A program made the position numbers and the translations under genes. The notes under the pieces were generated by a model. It was not told where the DNA came from, did not search any database, and saw only the letters and a list, made by a program, of their open reading frames with translations. Of a stretch of 55,391 nucleotides of DNA, positions 40,558 through 48,332 are shown in pieces. Source of the stretch: Chloroflexota bacterium (GTDB lineage: Bacteria; Chloroflexota; Anaerolineae; Aggregatilineales; Phototrophicaceae); NCBI GenBank assembly GCA_013388735.1, contig JACAES010000085.1, positions 1-55,391 of the forward strand. The letters are read 5' to 3'. Numbering within the stretch: the stretch's first letter is position 1; every line of letters starts with the position of its first letter.

Positions 40558-40953
40558 TTATGCCCGGCCTTTGGACGCTACCCGCTGCGTGAAGCGCGCC
40601 ACATCAATCACAAAGCGTGTATGCGTCCCATCGCCGATTAATTCCTGTTCATCCCACGCCTGCACCCTGAACACCACCTGTCGCCCTTCGACGCGCGTCA
40701 CTTCCGCCCGCGCCCGCACCTGCTGGCCGAGCGGAGTCGCTGCCAGATGCCGCACGTCCAGCGCCGTCCCTACGCTGGCCTGGCCTTCCGGCAGCAGGTG
40801 GTCAATGGCCGCGACCGCCGCCGCCTCCATCAGTGCGATCATAGCCGGCGTCGCGTAGACCGGCAGGCCGCCACTGCCCAGGTGTGTCGCCGTCAGGTCA
40901 TCGCTGACGATAGCTGTGCGCTCACCGGCCTGGCCGGGTTCAATCTGCCCCAT
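40558..40953 (-). CDS. Hotdog-fold thioesterase, fluoroacetyl-CoA thioesterase (FlK)-like
   Basis: 131 aa. Seen: Thr35 (YATPAM), Glu43 (LMEAA) and His69 (DVRHLAATP). Their spacing (8 and 26 residues) equals that of the FlK catalytic triad Thr42/Glu50/His76. GTALDVRH and GDGTHTRFVID are further family blocks. Cleaves an acyl-CoA thioester. Many genomes carry such proteins without fluoroacetate metabolism, so the real substrate is unknown. AGAGG precedes the ATG. Divergent from the lysine operon leader. Confidence 0.85.
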   Translation of the reverse strand: MGQIEPGQAGERTAIVSDDLTATHLGSGGLPVYATPAMIALMEAAAVAAIDHLLPEGQASVGTALDVRHLAATPLGQQVRARAEVTRVEGRQVVFRVQAWDEQELIGDGTHTRFVIDVARFTQRVASKGRA

Positions 40954-41004: not shown

Positions 41005-41034
41005 TTGCTATAAAACACATTTCCAGACGATAAT
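41005..41034 (+). promoter_or_regulatory. Predicted promoter of the lysine operon
   Basis: TTGCTA (41005-41010), an 18-bp spacer and GATAAT (41029-41034) would start RNA near 41041. Just upstream lies a short perfect inverted repeat TGCAAgTTGCA (40992-41002), a possible operator. The 428-nt gap 40954-41381 between the thioesterase and lysW genes holds this promoter and two attenuators. Confidence 0.5.
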
Positions 41035-41065
41035 GGACAACAGTATAACCAGGAAAAAACAAACC

Positions 41066-41107
41066 GTGTATAACCTTGTGTGCGAGAAGAAAGCGAAGAA
41101 GACCTGA
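41066..41107 (+). CDS. Lysine leader peptide 1 (attenuator control peptide)
   Basis: Short ORF ending VCEKKAKKT-stop. Four of its last six codons are lysine (AAG AAA GCG AAG AAG, 41087-41101). The start is proposed as the GTG at 41066 (13 aa), preceded by AGGA at 41051-41054 and downstream of the predicted transcription start. An in-frame ATG at 41033 (24 aa) and another at 40982 are alternatives if transcription starts earlier. The peptide probably has no function of its own. Its translation senses charged tRNA-Lys, as TrpL senses tRNA-Trp. Confidence 0.6.
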   Translation: MYNLVCEKKAKKT

Positions 41108-41180
41108 CCCGACCAATTGTCCGGGCTTTTTCGCTTACCAGATGCGAACGACCAGAACCCGCCCGGATGGCGGGTTTTTT
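41087..41180 (+). promoter_or_regulatory. Lysine attenuator 1 (protector, antiterminator and terminator)
   Basis: Protector: the Lys-codon stretch AAGCGAAGAAG (41091-41101) pairs over 11 bp (one G-U) with CTTTTTCGCTT (41126-41136), with CCCG/CGGG (41108-41111, 41122-41125) stacked inside. Antiterminator: TCCGGGC (41120-41126) is perfectly complementary to GCCCGGA (41161-41167). Terminator: CCCGCC/GGCGGG (41158-41163, 41169-41174) followed by six Ts. A ribosome stalled on the lysine codons blocks the protector. That frees the antiterminator, which takes the 5' arm of the terminator. Confidence 0.65.
41156..41180 (+). terminator. Terminator of attenuator 1
   Basis: A 6-bp pure GC stem CCCGCC/GGCGGG with a 5-nt loop is followed directly by TTTTTT, 50 nt after leader peptide 1 and 202 nt before lysW. 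Confidence 0.8.
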
Positions 41181-41207
41181 CGTGTATTTCGTGTAAAGGG
41201 ATAAACC

Positions 41208-41282
41208 ATGTTATCGGCAGCCGTCCTTCAAGCGTTCGACAGCAAGAAGCAGAGCAAGAAACCAGACCCCCGATCTGGATAG
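41208..41282 (+). CDS. Lysine leader peptide 2 (attenuator control peptide)
   Basis: 24-aa ORF with a good ribosome site (AAAGGGA ending 7 nt before the ATG). It contains FDSKKQSKKPD: four lysine codons in a six-codon window (AAG AAG CAG AGC AAG AAA, 41244-41261). The stop TAG is at 41280-41282. It starts 28 nt after the first terminator and ends 27 nt before the second terminator stem. No similarity to a functional protein; its placement and codons fit a tRNA-Lys-sensing leader. Confidence 0.72.
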   Translation: MLSAAVLQAFDSKKQSKKPDPRSG

Positions 41283-41350
41283 CTGCGCTGCGCCCAAACT
41301 GTGAGCCGACCGCCGTCCAGATCAACTCCTGGGCGGCGGTTTTTATTTTC
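41262..41350 (+). promoter_or_regulatory. Lysine attenuator 2 (trp-type 1:2, 2:3, 3:4 structure)
   Basis: Segment 1:2: CCAGA (41262-41266, right after the last Lys codon) pairs with TCTGG (41274-41278). Segment 2:3 antiterminator: GATCTGGA (41272-41279) is perfectly complementary to TCCAGATC (41316-41323), 8 bp plus a possible G-U. Segment 3:4 terminator: ACCGCCG..CCAG (41309-41320) pairs with CTGG.CGGCGGT (41329-41340), then TTTTATTTT. A ribosome stalled on lysine codons covers segment 1 and favours 2:3 (read-through). One that reaches the TAG covers segments 1 and 2 and favours the terminator. Confidence 0.72.
41309..41350 (+). terminator. Terminator of attenuator 2
   Basis: An 11-bp interrupted GC-rich stem with an 8-nt loop and a T-rich tail sits 32 nt before the lysW ATG. 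Being immediately upstream of the operon's first gene, it must be read through for lys expression from the upstream promoter. Confidence 0.82.
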
Positions 41351-41381
41351 GACCGGATAGAATAAGAAAGGAAGTCTATCA

Positions 41382-41552
41382 ATGTCCCAGCCGATATGTC
41401 CTGAATGTGGCGGTACGGTCAACGTGCCGGCCGACGCGCTGCAAAACGAACTGCTCCCCTGCCCTGACTGCGGCACAGAACTGGAAATCATCAGTCTCAA
41501 CCCGCTGACGCTGGAGCGCGCCCCGGAAGTTGAAGAGGATTGGGGTGAATAA
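41382..41552 (+). CDS. lysW: LysW amino-group carrier protein
   Basis: 56 aa, missed by length filters. Carries lysine intermediates attached to its C-terminal glutamate in the AAA pathway. Seen: zinc ribbon Cys6-Pro-Glu-Cys9 and Cys27-Pro-Asp-Cys30, an acidic tail and the hallmark C-terminus EDWGE (52-56), whose last Glu gamma-carboxyl receives alpha-aminoadipate. AGGAAG lies 8 nt before the ATG. First protein gene of the operon, 1 nt before lysX. Confidence 0.97.
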
Positions 41553-41553
41553 A

Positions 41554-42432
41554 ATGCGCGTCGCTTTGCTCGTCACCCATCTGCGCGCCGAAGAAAAACT
41601 GCTGATCGAGGCGTTCCAGGCGCGTGGCTTCCAACCGGACATTCTGCTCGACCGGCAGATCACGTTTGATCTCACCGCTGGGTCGGAACAGCGCACGCCG
41701 TCCGGTGCGGCCTGGCGCGACTATGACGTTATTCTGGAACGCTGCGTCAGCACCTCGCGGGGACTCTACCTGCTGGCCGTCCTCAACGCCTGGGGAATCC
41801 GCACCATCAATTCTCACGCAGCAGCGGCTACCTGCGCCGACAAACTGCTGACCACGCTGGCGCTGGCCTCGGCGGGTGTTCCTCAGCCGTCGGCGCGGGT
41901 GGCCTTCGACGACGAAAGCGCCCTAGACATCATCGGGCAGATCGGCTACCCCGCCGTACTCAAACCCGTCACCGGCTCGTGGGGGCGGCTGTTGGCACGC
42001 ATCAATGATCGGGACAGCGCCGAAGCGATCATCGAACACCGGCAGACGTTGGGCGGCTACCAGCACCATGTTTACTATGCACAGCCTTACGTTAACAAAC
42101 CGGGGCGCGACATCCGCGCATTTGTGGTCGGCGACGAAACCATCTGCGCCATCTACCGCACCTCGCCGCACTGGATCACCAATACCGCGCGCGGCGGCCA
42201 GGCCGCAAACTGCCCCGTCACGCCGGAACTGGACGCGCTCTGCCTTCGGGCAGCGGCAGCGGTCGGCGGCGGTGTGCTGGCGCTTGACCTGTTTGAAGAC
42301 CCCGAACGCGGCCTGCTGGTCAACGAAATCAACCATACGATGGAATTCCGCAACAGCAGCGCCCCTACCGGCGTGAACATCGCCGCCCGCGTCGCCGATT
42401 ATGCGCTGCGGCAGGCCGAGGTGGTCGTATGA
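41554..42432 (+). CDS. lysX: Alpha-aminoadipate--LysW ligase
   Basis: 292 aa ATP-grasp enzyme joining alpha-aminoadipate to the LysW C-terminus. The ATG at 41554 is chosen, 1 nt after the lysW stop with GGGGTGA ahead of it; an upstream in-frame ATG lies inside lysW. Seen: ATP-grasp features including [43 protein letters not shown] and the metal-site [11 protein letters not shown] near the C-terminus. The NHTMEF wording is that of LysX rather than the glutamate-specific ArgX, from memory. Confidence 0.95.
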
Positions 42433-43466
42433 TCCGGGCGGGAGTCGTCGGCGCATCCGGTTATGCCGGGGGCGAACTGCTCCGGCTGCTGCTCGGCCAC
42501 CCTCGTGTCGAGGTTATTCAGGCCACCTCGCAGAGCAGTATGGGCAAATTTCTGCACCAGGTTCATCCGCACCTGCGTGGGCGCACGACCTTGCGTTTCA
42601 TCAGCCCGGATGCGCTCCAGCCCTGCGACGTGCTGTTCCTGGCGCTGCCACACGGCGAAGCGCAGACCCACATCGAACAGTACACTGCTCTCGCCGGCAC
42701 GATCATTGACCTGAGCGCGGATTTCCGCCTGCGCGACCCGGCAGCCTACGCAGCCGCTTACGGCAACCATGCCGCGCCGGACTGGCTGCCGCGTTTCGCC
42801 TACGGTCTGCCGGAGATCAACCGTCCTGCCCTGCGCGAAACCCGCTTCGCCAGCGGCGTGGGCTGCAACGCCGCCGCGACAATCCTGGCGCTGCGGGCAG
42901 TACGTGACGCCGGGTGGCTGGATGTTAGCCAGCCCATCATCGCCGATGTAAAAGTCGGCAGCAGCGAGGCCGGCAGCAACCCCGGCGAGTCCAGCCATCA
43001 TCCCGCCCGCGCCGGCGTCGTGCGCCCCTTCCAGCTTACCGGCCACCGCCATGAGGCGGAAATCCGCCAGGCATTCGCCAGCAGCGGCCCACTGGACGTG
43101 CGGTTGTCTGTCACCAGCGTCGAGATGGTGCGCGGCGTTTCGGCGGCGGTACACGTCACCCTGCCGCCAGGCCTGGCCGAACGCGACCTATGGAATGCCT
43201 ATCGCGCCACCTGGAACGGCGAGCCGTTCGTCCGCATCGTCCACGAAAAAACCGGCATTCACCGCCACCCGGAGCCGCGTTTGCTGGCCGGGACGAATTA
43301 CGCCGACGTGGGCTGGGAATACGACCCCGCCAGCGGGCGCGCCGTCCTGTTGTGCGCCCTGGACAACCTCGGCAAAGGCGCGGCAGGCACAGCCGTCCAG
43401 TGCATGAATCTGATGTATGGCTTTGAAGAAACATCTGGTCTGAGTTTTGGAGGTTTTTACCCATGA
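42429..43466 (+). CDS. lysY: [LysW]-aminoadipyl-6-phosphate reductase (ArgC family)
   Basis: 345 aa. NADPH-dependent reduction of the LysW-bound aminoadipyl phosphate to the semialdehyde. Seen: nucleotide loop [17 protein letters not shown] at 5-21, LALPHGEAQ near 71, catalytic Cys146 in GVGCNAAAT, and the YADVGWEYD-like C-terminal block. It belongs to the ArgC fold; the neighbouring lysW/lysX genes assign it to lysine. Overlaps lysX by 4 nt and lysZ by 4 nt. Confidence 0.94.
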
Positions 43467-44281
43467 TCTCGGTACTGAAACTTGGCGGCGGCGCAGGCAA
43501 CGATCACACGATGGCGCTGCACAATTTCGCCGACCGAATCCGCACAGGCGAGCAGTGGGTGCTGGTACACGGCGCCAGCGCGGCGGCGGACGCCCTGGCC
43601 GAACAGGTCGGTTATCCGACGCGCACGCTTGTCACGCCCGGCGGTCATACCAGCCGCTACACCGACGCGCGAACGCTGGACATCTTCTGCATGGCAGCGG
43701 CTTCCGTCAACCAGCAGATGGTCGCCGCGCTCGACGTGCTGGGCATTCGCGCCGCCGGGTTAGCCGGGCCGAACGTCATCCGTGCTGCTCGTAAAACAAC
43801 CATTCGCGCTGTGCGCGACGGGCGGCAGGTACTCATCCGTGACGATTATTCCGGCTCCATTACCGGCGTGGATGCACACCTGCTGTCGGCGCTGCTCGAT
43901 GCCGGCATCACGCCGGTGGTCGCGCCGATCGCATTGGGAACGGATGGCGAACGCCTGAACGTGGACGGCGACCTGGCCGCCGGCGCCATCGCCCGCGCGC
44001 TGGAAGCTGAAACGCTGCTCATCCTCAGCAACGTCCCCGGCCTGCTCCGCGATGTTCATGATCCATCCTCGCTGGTGCGGTCTTTTGATCTGTCCGAACT
44101 GCCGCAGCACGAAACCCTGGCGCTTGGCCGCATGAAGAAAAAACTGCTGGCCGCCGAACGCGCGGGTGTGGGACGTTTTATCCTGTCCGATTCGCGCCTC
44201 AGCCAGCCGGTGGACTCGGCGCTGAACGGGGCCGGCACGCATATTCAGGCGAGGGTTCTCAATGGTCACTTCAATGCCTGA
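43463..44281 (+). CDS. lysZ: [LysW]-aminoadipate kinase (ArgB family)
   Basis: 272 aa amino-acid kinase that phosphorylates the delta-carboxyl of LysW-aminoadipate. Seen: VLKLGGGAGND at the N-terminus, VLVHGASA near 33, GLAGPNVIRAARKT, VVAPIALGTDGERLNVDGDLAAGAIA near 150 and LILSNVPGLLRD. These are all N-acetylglutamate-kinase-fold motifs, and PGGHTSRYTD resembles the acceptor region of LysZ. GGAGG lies upstream of the ATG. Overlaps lysJ by 20 nt. Confidence 0.94.
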   Translation: MISVLKLGGGAGNDHTMALHNFADRIRTGEQWVLVHGASAAADALAEQVGYPTRTLVTPGGHTSRYTDARTLDIFCMAAASVNQQMVAALDVLGIRAAGLAGPNVIRAARKTTIRAVRDGRQVLIRDDYSGSITGVDAHLLSALLDAGITPVVAPIALGTDGERLNVDGDLAAGAIARALEAETLLILSNVPGLLRDVHDPSSLVRSFDLSELPQHETLALGRMKKKLLAAERAGVGRFILSDSRLSQPVDSALNGAGTHIQARVLNGHFNA

Positions 44282-45434
44282 TCTGATGGAATTAGAGCAG
44301 GCGCGTTCCAGCGGTGTTTACCTCAAACGTGACCTGCAAATTGTGCGCGGCGACGGCGCGGCGCTGTACGACGCGGCAGGTCGCCGGTACATTGACTGCG
44401 TGGGCGGCCAGGGCGCGGCCAATCTTGGTCACGGCCACCCGGCGCTGATCGCCGCCATCCAGCGGCAGTTAAGCGACCTGATGGCCTGCCCAGAATTATT
44501 CCATAACCCCGTCCGGGCGCGGTATCAGGACGAGTTGTGCCGCACTGCCAACATGCCCAGGGTGTTTCTGTGCAGCAGCGGCGCGGAAGCCGTCGAGGCT
44601 GCGCTCAAATTCGCCCGGCTGACCACTCGCCGCCCCAACTTCATCGCCGCCATGCGCGGTTTTCATGGCCGCACGATGGGCGCGCTCAGCATCACCTGGG
44701 AAAAAACCTACCGCGAACCGTTTGAGCCGCTGCTGCCGGGAGTGCGACACGTCCCCTATAACAATCTGGAGCGGCTGGCCGAAGCCCTGGATGATACCGT
44801 CGCGGCGGTCATCCTTGAACCCATCCAGGGCGAGGGCGGCGTGCATCCGGCCCAGCCGGGTTATCTGGCCGAAGTGCAGCGGTTGTGCCACGAACGCGGC
44901 GCGCTGCTTGTCCTGGACGAAGTGCAGACCGGCTTCGGGCGCACCGGCCACCTGTTCGCTTACCGGCACGATGGCATCCAGCCGGATTTAGTATGCCTCG
45001 CCAAAAGCATCGCCGGTGGGCTGCCGATGGGCGCGGTTTTGATCGGCGAGCGGGTCGGAAAGATACCGCCTGCGACGCATGGCAGCACCTTCGGCGGCGG
45101 CCCGGTCGCCTGCGCGGCGGCGCTGGCCGTGCTGGACGTGCTGCAAACGACTAATCTCATCGAGCGAGCGTCCAGGCTGGGCGCGGCGGTGCTGGATCAT
45201 CTGCACACTAACCGTCCCGCCGGCGTCCGCGAAGTGCGCGGGCGCGGCCTGATGATCGGCCTCGAACTGCGCGGCAAAGTCGCCCCGGTGCTGCGGGCGC
45301 TGCAAACACGCGGCGTGCTGGCGCTGCCCGCCGGCTCAACCGTGCTGCGGCTGCTGCCCCCGCTGGTAATCTCGGAAGACGATCTGTGGCAGGCGATACA
45401 GACCATCGAGGAGGTGGTTAACGATGCCCTTTGA
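44262..45434 (+). CDS. lysJ: [LysW]-aminoadipate semialdehyde aminotransferase
   Basis: 390 aa class III PLP aminotransferase that turns the LysW-bound semialdehyde into LysW-lysine. Seen: CSSGAEAVEAALKFAR near 104-119, FHGRTMGALSITW near 134, LDEVQTGFGRTG near 218, the PLP lysine Lys248 in CLAKSIAGGLPMG, and HGSTFGGGPVACAAALA. GAGGG lies before the ATG at 44262; a second Met four codons on is possible. Overlaps lysZ by 20 nt and hcs by 11 nt. Confidence 0.94.
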   Translation: MVTSMPDLMELEQARSSGVYLKRDLQIVRGDGAALYDAAGRRYIDCVGGQGAANLGHGHPALIAAIQRQLSDLMACPELFHNPVRARYQDELCRTANMPRVFLCSSGAEAVEAALKFARLTTRRPNFIAAMRGFHGRTMGALSITWEKTYREPFEPLLPGVRHVPYNNLERLAEALDDTVAAVILEPIQGEGGVHPAQPGYLAEVQRLCHERGALLVLDEVQTGFGRTGHLFAYRHDGIQPDLVCLAKSIAGGLPMGAVLIGERVGKIPPATHGSTFGGGPVACAAALAVLDVLQTTNLIERASRLGAAVLDHLHTNRPAGVREVRGRGLMIGLELRGKVAPVLRALQTRGVLALPAGSTVLRLLPPLVISEDDLWQAIQTIEEVVNDAL

Positions 45435-46563
45435 AAATTACAGCATCATCGAAAGCACCCTGCGGGAAGGCGAGCAGTTCAGCACCGCCGCTTTCACCAC
45501 CGCCCAGAAACAGGCAATCGCCGAGCGACTCGATGCCTTTGGTATCGAAATGATCGAAATGACCTCTCCATGCGCCTCGCCCCAGAGCGCCGCCGACGTT
45601 CGCGCGGTGGTCGGTATGGGGCTGCGCGCCCGCATCCTCACGCATATCCGCTGCAACCACGATGATGCCCGCCGCGCGCTCGATACCGGTGTGCAGGGTA
45701 TAGACATCGTGATCGGCACGTCGCCGCAGTTAATCCGGCACAGTCACGGTAAAAATATCAACCAGATCATTGACCTGGCGGCGGACGTGCTTTCGTTCAT
45801 CCGTCAGCAGGCGCCGGACATGATCTTACGCTTCAGCACCGAGGACAGCTTTCGCAGCCGCGAAGCCGACCTGCTGCGGGTTTACCTAGCGATTGCCGAC
45901 CTCGGCCTCGTCCAGCGGCTTGGCGTGGCCGATACCGTCGGCGTCGCCCTGCCCGGCCAGGTCTCCGCGCTGGTGCATCAGTTGGTGCGGCTGACCGGGT
46001 TGGATGTCGAGTTTCACGGCCACAACGACAGCGGCTGCGCCATCGCCAACGCCTGCGCCGCCCTGGAAGCCGGGGCGACACACATAGACACCACCATTCT
46101 GGGCATCGGCGAACGCAACGGTATCACGCCGCTGGGCGGCCTGATCGCCCGCCTCTATACCCTAAACCGGCGATACGTGGCAAAATACGACCTCAAACTA
46201 CTGCCGCAGCTTGATCTGCTCATCGCCGACTACTGCGACATCCCGATTCCGTTCAGCAACTATATCACCGGCTCAAGCGCCTTCATCCATAAGGCCGGCA
46301 TCCATGCCAAAGCCGTCCTGGCCGACCCGCAGACTTACGAAATTCTCCAGCCGGAAGACTTTGGCCTCACGCGGGAAATTGCTGTTGGTCACCGGCTGAC
46401 CGGCTGGAACGCTATTCGCAATCGCGCGCTGGCGCTTGGCCTCAGCCTCGACGAAGCGACGCTGAAATCCATCACGCAGACGATTAAACAGCGCGCCGAC
46501 CGCCAGCCGCTTTCGCTGCCGGAAGTGGATGCCCTGCTGATGGAGGCAGCTTTACAATTATGA
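45424..46563 (+). CDS. hcs: Homocitrate synthase
   Basis: 379 aa. Condenses 2-oxoglutarate with acetyl-CoA, the entry step of the AAA pathway. Seen: [13 protein letters not shown] at 8-20 (catalytic Arg14/Glu15), [31 protein letters not shown] and the [13 protein letters not shown] metal site near 196. It lacks a C-terminal LeuA regulatory domain of the isopropylmalate synthase type, as LYS20-type enzymes do. [11 protein letters not shown], the C-terminal motif, is present. GAGGAGG ribosome site inside the end of lysJ. Confidence 0.93.
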
Positions 46564-47825
46564 GCGGCTATACCTTTGCCGAAAAAGCGCTCGCCCGCGC
46601 CGCCGGTCTGACCACCGCCCGCGCCGGGGACATTCTGGACATTCAACCGGATTTAATCTTCAGCCACGATAATTCGGCGGCTATCCGGCGTATCTTTGAG
46701 CAGACCGGTGCGCCCGCGGTCGTCCGCCCAGAGCGTATCGCCATCACCCTCGACCATGCCGTTCCTGCCCCCACTACTCAGCACGCGCAGAACCACGCCG
46801 AGATTCGCCGCTGGGTACAGGAACAGGGCATCCGGCACTTCTTTGAAGTCGGGCGTGGCATCTGCCACCAGGTCATCAGCGAAGAGGCGCTTGTGCTGCC
46901 CGGCGAAACCATCCTGGGCGCAGACAGCCACAGCACCCACTATGGATGGCTCGGCGCATTCGGCATGGGCATCGGGCGCACCGAGATGGCCGCCCTATGG
47001 GCGACCGGTGAATTGTGGCTGCGCGTGCCGGAATCCATGAAAATTACACTTAACGGCAAATTACAGCGCAGCGTCACCATCAAAGACGCGAGTCTGCGTA
47101 TCCTGGGCGACCTGGGCGTGGCCGGCGGCCAGTACCGCGCAGTCGAATTTGCGGGCGATGCGCTCTCAACCCTCACTCTGGATGAGCGCCCAGTCCTGCC
47201 TAACATGATGGCGGAATTCGGCGCGATGAGCGCCTACTTGCCCCCCGATCAGGCCGTTTTCGACTATCTCGAACCGCGCCGGACGCGCGCCTACACCCCG
47301 CTTTATCCTGACCATGATGCGATATACGCCGCAGAATACACCCTGGACGTATCCAACCTCGAACCACAGATCGCCCTGCCCCACCAGCCCGATAATGTCG
47401 TCCCTTTGTCAGAGGTGATCGGCCAGCCCATCCAGCAGGCATTCCTGGGAACCTGTACCAACGGGCGCTTCGAGGACTTACAGGCCGCCGCCGAAGTGCT
47501 GCGCGGCCACCGGGTGCGCTGTCGTCTGGTGGTCATCCCGGCCAGCTCGCAGGTTTATCTCCGGGCCGCGCAATCCGGCGTCCTGGCCGCCCTGGTCGAA
47601 GCTGGCGCGGCGGTTGGCACGCCCGGCTGCGGCCCATGTATGGGCAATCACATGGGCATCCCGGCTCCCGACGAAGCAACGATCAGTAGCGCCAACCGCA
47701 ACTTTCGCGGACGCATGGGGACGCCGGAAGCCCCGGTGTATCTGGCAAGCCCCTATGTCGTCGCGGCCAGCGCCATCTGCGGGCATCTGGCCGATCCGCG
47801 TGAATTTTTATCTGACCGGTTTTAA
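46560..47825 (+). CDS. hacA: Homoaconitase large subunit
   Basis: 421 aa Fe-S hydro-lyase subunit isomerising homocitrate to homoisocitrate. Seen: HDNSAAI near 39, [17 protein letters not shown], and the 4Fe-4S cysteines in FLGTCTNGR (about 300) and TPGCGPCMG (about 355-359). [12 protein letters not shown] and YLASP are further LeuC/HacA motifs. Sequence alone cannot separate it from LeuC; the AAA operon assigns it. Starts at an ATGA overlap with hcs. Confidence 0.92.
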
Positions 47826-47834
47826 GGAGCATTT

Positions 47835-48332
47835 ATGGCTTTACATCGTGTCTGGGTTTACGGCGACAATGTGAATACCGATGTGATTTTCCCCGGCAAA
47901 TATACCTACACCCTCAAAACGCCGGAAGAAATTGCCGTCCATGCTCTCGAAGACCTCGACCCGGCTTTCGCAGGCGGCGTCCGTCCGGGCGATGTCATCG
48001 TCGCGGGGCGCAACTGGGGCAGCGGCAGCAGCCGGGAGCAGGCCGTTACCGCGCTCAAATACGCCGGCGTCCCGGTAATCATTGCGGCGTCTTTCGGTGG
48101 TCTGTACTTCCGCAACTGCATTAATCAGGGCATCTGGCCGGTCGTCTGCCCGGAGCTGCGCCAATGGGTGCAAACCGGCGAAACCATCGAAATAGATCGC
48201 CAGACCAATCAAATTCTCGCCGCCGGGCGCGCGTTCGCCATCCCCTCACTTTCGCCATCAGTGCAGGCTATTCTGGACGGCGGCGGCCTGCTGCCCATGC
48301 TACAGCGCCGCTTCGGAAAGGTCACTGTATGA
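47835..48332 (+). CDS. hacB: Homoaconitase small subunit
   Basis: 165 aa swivel-domain partner of HacA. Seen: DNVNTDVIFPGKYTYT near 11-26, AGRNWGSGSSREQAV near 57-71 (substrate-anchoring Ser/Arg) and FFRNCINQG-like LYFRNCINQGIWPV. The VIFPGKYTYT loop is the region that sets chain-length specificity between LeuD and HacB. AAGGAG lies 7 nt before the ATG. Stop overlaps the next start by 4 nt. Confidence 0.93.
   Translation: MALHRVWVYGDNVNTDVIFPGKYTYTLKTPEEIAVHALEDLDPAFAGGVRPGDVIVAGRNWGSGSSREQAVTALKYAGVPVIIAASFGGLYFRNCINQGIWPVVCPELRQWVQTGETIEIDRQTNQILAAGRAFAIPSLSPSVQAILDGGGLLPMLQRRFGKVTV

Follow-up and report, generated by a model that had tools for sequence, protein, structure and literature searches.

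Ribosome-mediated attenuation is a classical mode of gene control. The description nearest in pathway is that of the Thermus thermophilus lysine cluster, where Tsubouchi et al. (J Biol Chem, 2005) reportedly found a Lys-coding leader peptide and transcriptional attenuation; by that description the pathway is the same as at the locus reported here, with a single attenuator there and two here. To our knowledge, little is known about how lysine synthesis through LysW is regulated. Two termination decisions per leader are also made by tandem T-boxes, which bind tRNA directly and have no sensing leader ORF.

The E. coli trp leader, described in part in PMC3641672, has in common with our locus a leader ORF coding for the operon's own amino acid, an intrinsic terminator and an antiterminator exclusive with it; it also has a protector pairing, of which our locus has a weakly supported counterpart. 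The present locus differs in having Lys rather than Trp codons, two full units in series, a host from the Chloroflexota, and an antiterminator strand (strand 2) that in its second unit lies inside the ORF. Tandem attenuators that sense ATP and proline were described for the Salmonella mgtCBR leader (PMC3641672), which likewise has two leader ORFs, one of them rich in proline codons, and two attenuators; its signals differ from each other and its stem-loops are, in that source, unlike intrinsic terminators, whereas here both units have intrinsic terminators and Lys codons and would thus read one signal rather than two different ones. The two attenuators of msrD were termed a "double-lock system" and proposed to prevent basal expression without inducer (PMC10314930), in a context of macrolide resistance, unlike a lysine leader. 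The rimP-leader was reported to have a second terminator in tandem with a potential antiterminator (PMC2965389), and thus two terminators as here, and no amino-acid codon leader is apparent in the available part of that source. Lastly, the tandem riboswitches of B. clausii metE likewise take two termination decisions, through ligand binding and with no sensing ORF (PMC3641672). Two leader attenuators for the same amino acid in series were not found among the literature matches listed, in which subscription journals were thinly covered, and the same matches held no amino-acid leader from Chloroflexota and no attenuator family from Anaerolineae, which is no proof of absence.

The two units of the lysW leader

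The window, by which we mean the whole 55,391-nt stretch of DNA that was analysed, corresponds to contig C54 of a draft genome (4.27 Mb, 190 contigs); among named genomes, its closest relatives are MAGs that carry the labels Anaerolineae, Chloroflexi or Aggregatilineales. In it, lysW is followed by lysX, lysY/argC, lysZ, lysJ, homocitrate synthase (hcs), and the large and small subunits of homoaconitase (Table 1). The leader (41005–41381) is bounded upstream by a minus-strand gene (40558–40953) with a weak thioesterase-like match below the family cut-off, and consists of a promoter-like site, ORF A with its antiterminator and terminator, ORF B with its antiterminator and terminator, and then lysW. 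Judged from the sequence, these parts very probably constitute two Lys-responsive ribosome-mediated attenuators in series on one transcript. A preliminary description of this DNA had proposed two tandem Lys-codon attenuators before a LysW operon; the proposal held at every coordinate and came out stronger than it had first been put.

Table 1. Features of the lysW leader and the genes downstream of it (window positions)
Feature	Position	Strand	Basis or remark
Promoter-like site, TTGCTA-18-GATAAT	41005..41034	+	Promoter scan; transcription start expected near 41041
Leader ORF A, VYNLVCEKKAKKT-stop	41066..41107	+	GTG start from promoter-like site and relatives
Four unit A Lys codons, AAG AAA GCG AAG AAG (Lys at 41087-41092 and 41096-41101)	41087..41101	+	KKxKK positions, AAA/AAG variation
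Unit A protector hairpin P1, Lys-codon arm 41091-41101 pairing with 41126-41136	41091..41136	+	Predicted fold
Unit A antiterminator strand 2, TCCGGGC	41120..41126	+	Exact pairing, shuffles, covariation
Terminator A, stem CCCGCC/GGCGGG and T tract	41158..41180	+	Sequence, covariation
Unit A strand 3, GCCCGGA (5' arm and loop of terminator A)	41161..41167	+	Pairing, shuffles, covariation
Leader ORF B, MLSAAVLQAFDSKKQSKKPDPRSG-stop, ATG start	41208..41282	+	AAGGGA upstream
Four unit B Lys codons, AAG AAG CAG AGC AAG AAA (Lys at 41244-41249 and 41256-41261)	41244..41261	+	KKP codons in relatives
Unit B protector hairpin, 41249-41252/41288-41291, 41254-41256/41284-41286, 41262-41266/41274-41278	41249..41291	+	Predicted fold
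Unit B antiterminator strand 2, GATCTGGA, inside ORF B	41272..41279	+	Pairing, shuffles, covariation
Putative RNA polymerase pause block, TGGATAGCTGCG	41276..41287	+	Fit to G-10 Y-1 G+1 signature (hypothesis)
Terminator B, stem CCGCCGTCCAG/CTGGGCGGCGG and T tract	41310..41349	+	Sequence, covariation
Unit B strand 3, TCCAGATC (5' arm and loop of terminator B)	41316..41323	+	Pairing, shuffles, covariation
lysW, amino-group carrier protein	41382..41552	+	TIGR01206 above cut-off
Presumed controlled operon	41554..48332	+	Gene ends overlapping or nearly abutting

ORF A ends in ...EKKAKKT and has an alternative in-frame ATG at 41033. Its start is probably the GTG at 41066, since the ATG falls in the -10 box of the promoter-like site and the GTG matches the position of the ATG in relatives (VYNLVCEKKAKK vs MFVLVGDKKAKK). 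For ORF B the preliminary description was right about the clustered Lys codons and gave the peptide as far as KKPD, which is not its end; the frame continues as ...KKPDPRSG-stop (tail ...SKKQSKKPDPRSG), and strand 2 of unit B therefore lies inside the ORF.

The antiterminators, described as 7 and 8 bp long and perfectly complementary, are exact (7/7 and 8/8 paired), and strand 3 is placed in both units such that the antiterminator invades the 5' arm or loop of the terminator, again as described. Against dinucleotide shuffles both reached the lowest possible empirical p (1/101), with z of -4.6 for unit A and -4.7 for unit B. The predicted fold of the leader segment gave z -3.3 in unit A, where the P1 arms alone fold at -16.4 kcal/mol (z -1.7), and z -2.7 in unit B.

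Occurrence and covariation among relatives

Upstream regions of lysW were gathered from relatives, named genomes and the class, 215 loci in all, and the 176 regions that were distinct and 250 nt or longer were scanned for units, defined as at least three Lys codons within six and a terminator starting 25–140 nt further on. Of these 176 regions, 100 had a Lys unit by this detector, and 43 of them had two, compared with at most 39/176 with a unit (Arg) and at most 2 with two units for the other 19 amino acids used as controls; we attribute part of the Arg count to AAG-AAG read in a shifted frame. On the reverse strand no Lys unit was detected in any of the 176 regions. Tandem loci occur in no fewer than five families of the class (f1, f3, f8, f22 and f42), and relatives with a single unit exist (e.g. 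L022–L025). The 76 regions without a unit include cases where lysW lies inside an operon and the leader is at hcs. Conservation of the Lys codons, a check suggested by the preliminary description, was confirmed, the codons being kept across relatives with synonymous exchange (519 AAG and 92 AAA in the leader ORFs).

In 21 of the 43 tandem loci, compared with 2 in shuffles, the 75 nt preceding ORF A contained a sigma-70-like site, called at a score of at least 9 of 12, and at the same score no such site was found between the units in any of the 43, where the gap from terminator A to ORF B had a median of 30 nt. With a promoter signal upstream of A and none between the units, the sequence evidence therefore points to a single transcript that carries both units one after the other. 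In MAGs with the labels Planctomycetota and Phycisphaeraceae (L055, L094), lysW was also preceded by Lys-rich ORFs that resemble leaders and have terminators, and two B-type Lys leaders stand in tandem near a contig end with no gene visible (L241, G428:C360).

Two covariance models were used to search further, R1 for unit A and R2, built from Lys leaders, for unit B. In the window's genome each had one match at E≤0.01, both in the lysW leader. Across 396 genomes of the class, at E≤0.001 and with stricter filters, R2 hit 111 and R1 42, a number of the hits lying in front of operons whose first gene is hcs, not lysW. Two genomes (G023, G024) have a separate operon for homocitrate synthase, lysT and lysU, and directly before it R1 and R2 match again and two leader ORFs are readable, so that the leader is tandem there too.

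The antiterminator duplex (2:3 pairing) surpassed dinucleotide shuffles at p≤0.05 in 97/143 units. Covariation was assessed on hand-picked sets of alignable units (39 A and 27 B). In unit A, 93.4% of cells in the 2:3 pairing were paired and 37 cells had changed on both sides; none of 500 shuffles reached the pairing level or the covariation score, and slid controls remained at or below 43%. The terminator (3:4 pairing) of unit A was 90.5% paired. For unit B the corresponding values were 93.5% for 2:3 and 89.8% for 3:4, with 7 of 11 pairs of the latter changed on both sides. Fuller alignments gave 82% paired vs 75% in shuffles for 2:3 of A (66 rows) and 90% vs 83% for 2:3 of B (41 rows), with 0/500 shuffles as good in either. 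Automatic consensus folding of mixed alignments returned no structure, and the named structures were scored instead. Covariation of 2:3 and 3:4, which the preliminary description had asked for, is thus present for both mutually exclusive pairings in both units. The arrangement is that of a trp-type attenuator: an ORF with Lys codons, an intrinsic terminator indicated by sequence and covariation, and an antiterminator exclusive with the terminator.

The protector hairpin behaved differently. No covariation was seen in the inner helix of the A protector (405/500 shuffles equally good), and its Lys:U helix was paired at 76% vs 74% in shuffles (1/500 as good; 41/500 across all 66 rows). The inner and outer helices of the B protector were matched by 76/500 and 195/500 shuffles, respectively. 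As the alignments gave weak or negative results, P1 was tested unit by unit, and reached p≤0.05 in 42/139 units, comprising 22/43 first, 7/42 second and 13/54 single units; in some A units (L005, L010, L050) the protector is long and clear, and its 5' arm holds the Lys codons. The protector pairing, originally assigned to both units alike, is therefore fairly supported in first units and statistically weak in second units.

Modelled ribosome positions and a proposed mechanism

A ribosome, its leading edge placed 11 nt downstream of the first A-site nucleotide, was modelled on 105 of the 143 units, preselected for a good antiterminator. In these, the median distance from the last Lys codon to the start of strand 2 is 15 nt for first units and 11 nt for second units; the corresponding position relative to the stop codon is at its end (first) or 12 nt before it (second). 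With the ribosome on the last Lys codon, the probability of the 2:3 pairing exceeded 0.5 in 101/105 units (median 0.99), a figure that is partly circular because of the preselection. At the stop codon it exceeded 0.5 in 7/105 units (median 0.0), a figure free of that circularity. Leading edges of 9 and 13 nt changed these counts to 102 and 9, and to 100 and 7, respectively. Without a ribosome the antiterminator was favoured in 55/105 units (median 0.56); therefore the untranslated state is not clearly "off", and the protector is often insufficient alone. Unit B of the window follows the general pattern, with 0.99 on the last Lys codon, 0.0 at the stop and 0.54 without a ribosome. Unit A of the window is among the seven exceptions, with 0.99 at the stop and 0.0 without a ribosome, strand 2 then being held away. 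Its stop codon lies too far upstream to mask strand 2, so that unit A would rely on the protector hairpin.

Taken together, these positions suggest the following mechanism. RNA polymerase would start upstream of ORF A, with a ribosome trailing it through the mini-ORF. When charged tRNA-Lys is scarce, the ribosome would stall on the Lys codons and leave strand 2, some 10–15 nt past the last of them, free to pair with strand 3, which would block the terminator. When tRNA-Lys is charged, the ribosome would reach the stop codon and mask strand 2, as predicted for unit B and nearly all modelled units, or, at unit A of the window, would be released, upon which the arm holding the Lys codons would re-pair with strand 2. 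In either case the 3:4 pairing would form and transcription would terminate. Since the charge test would be repeated at unit B, the LysW operon would be fully transcribed only if both were passed, and the two termination steps might be expected to multiply.

The behaviour of unit A in the model, where strand 2 is left unmasked at the stop codon, together with the several single-unit relatives mentioned above, could indicate that only one unit works as a lysine attenuator and that the other is a leftover, a plain terminator or a pause element. We regard this as unlikely, since each unit is complete in its parts, Lys codons and covarying exclusive pairings included, and since the pair is kept across families and recurs before hcs. 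Two attenuators in series is the reading that we retain.

Codon-swapped leaders and the chassis

Forty R2 matches, mostly away from lysW, were inspected singly. Around a common B-type chassis the codons of the leader ORF were found to be swapped: leaders were Arg-rich before argC and argG, carried Lys before hcs or lysW, had five Ala directly upstream of alaS (three loci: L291, L295, L296), and were Pro-rich before proS (two loci). Because R2 was built from Lys leaders, it should work against finding such swaps. Seven R2 matches (L313, L321, L326–L330) were set aside as likely chance hits on coding ends or plain terminators.

The association was quantified by rule-based extraction from 70 loci around R2 matches, which resulted in 40 distinct leaders before a gene of known cognate amino acid (26 Lys, 9 Arg, 3 Ala and 2 Pro). 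Cognate residues numbered 159, compared with 101±10 under shuffled labels (0/20000 as high), and this count supersedes an earlier hand-made one on 45 leaders (156 vs 90±8). The cognate residue was the commonest of Lys, Arg, Ala and Pro in 36/40 leaders. The preliminary description had held that homologous leaders with the hairpins kept and the Lys codons lost would speak against it; where Lys is replaced, the new codons mostly follow the downstream gene, and leaders with no clear match also exist. The B-like leaders with no obvious cognate link are L300 (before a LysE-type gene), L302, L304, L306, L308 and L315 (a KK/RR leader upstream of a carA-like gene). Among them, Pro-rich leaders occur in three genomes of family f17, before a metallophosphoesterase (L306), beside a MazG-like gene (L302) and at L308, which was likened to L306 by eye only; they possibly have a proline-linked target. 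The genome that contains the window also has a second argC, preceded by a single leader with Arg codons, MLSRREQPYSPRRRSRRPLTREVEPGFLR-stop, and a terminator (L332, G000:C94); no leader was evident there directly before hisG, which closely follows another reading frame, or before alaS or proS.

These swaps bear on the proposal that the Lys-rich leader acts through its basic nascent chain, as a peptide that arrests or slows the ribosome, rather than as a sensor of tRNA charge. Positively charged residues have been reported to slow ribosomes (PMC3595205), and the tail PDxRSG-stop looks conserved as a peptide. However, in L293/L294 and in the Ala leaders another frame runs through the TCTGGA block, which is therefore kept as nucleic acid; the Ala and Pro leaders on the same chassis are not basic, and the residues track the amino acid of the downstream gene, which is not what marks an arrest peptide. 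This proposal is thus very unlikely. More improbable still is that the mini-ORFs act on lysW by translational coupling or reinitiation and not by transcription termination: reinitiation has been proposed as a way for leader genes to raise translation of the gene that follows (PMC4833913), but covarying intrinsic terminators with T tracts follow each ORF here, and terminator B lies in the 100 nt that separate the end of ORF B from lysW. A lysine riboswitch (L-box) or T-box with incidental ORFs, to which the position and the terminators would be suited in general, has next to no probability, as the window contains no Rfam family at gathering score, in keeping with the preliminary description, as 20 related loci have nothing above gathering except one tRNA gene (L158), and as leader matches at E≤5 are weak and at chance level. 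Likewise, the attenuator family itself has no match in Rfam 15 at gathering thresholds in the window and the 20 related loci.

A further element of the B chassis is a possible pause signal. The TGGNTAGNTGYG block at 41276–41287 has 67 related sequences, found across leaders for different amino acids. The block fits G-10 Y-1 G+1, which we take to be the RNA polymerase pause signature. Among the 67 distinct B-type sequences, which were picked by the motif C[T/C]GG with the GG as part of the search pattern, a pyrimidine-G step is kept ten positions after the first G of GG (pyrimidine in 33/41 and 23/26, G in 33/41 and 23/26) and the preceding bases vary. In the 27-unit B alignment, in which GG was not preselected, the first G and the later G are both invariant. 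We hypothesize that the block is a polymerase pause signal.

On balance, we lean towards the view that the Anaerolineae possess one homologous, modular attenuator chassis in which the sensor is swapped through the codons of the mini-ORF, often in tandem at lysine genes. The chassis may consist of the TCTGGATAGNTGYG antiterminator, the putative pause block and a terminator with TCCAGA, and the sensor codons may be Lys for lysW and hcs, Arg for argC and argG, Ala for alaS and Pro for proS. If this is true, the chassis would be the ribosome-based equivalent of the T-box regulon, and stacking in tandem at lysine genes would give a steeper, less leaky response.

These findings extend leader-peptide attenuation to a large class that is known here almost only from draft MAGs. 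With two attenuators for the same signal in one leader, the reason for duplicating a switch becomes directly testable. Furthermore, the codon-swapped homologues amount to an experiment done by nature, and they indicate that the signal is set by the codons. Runs of codons in leaders could also be used to read regulons, with proline and alanine runs pointing to targets in uncultured genomes.
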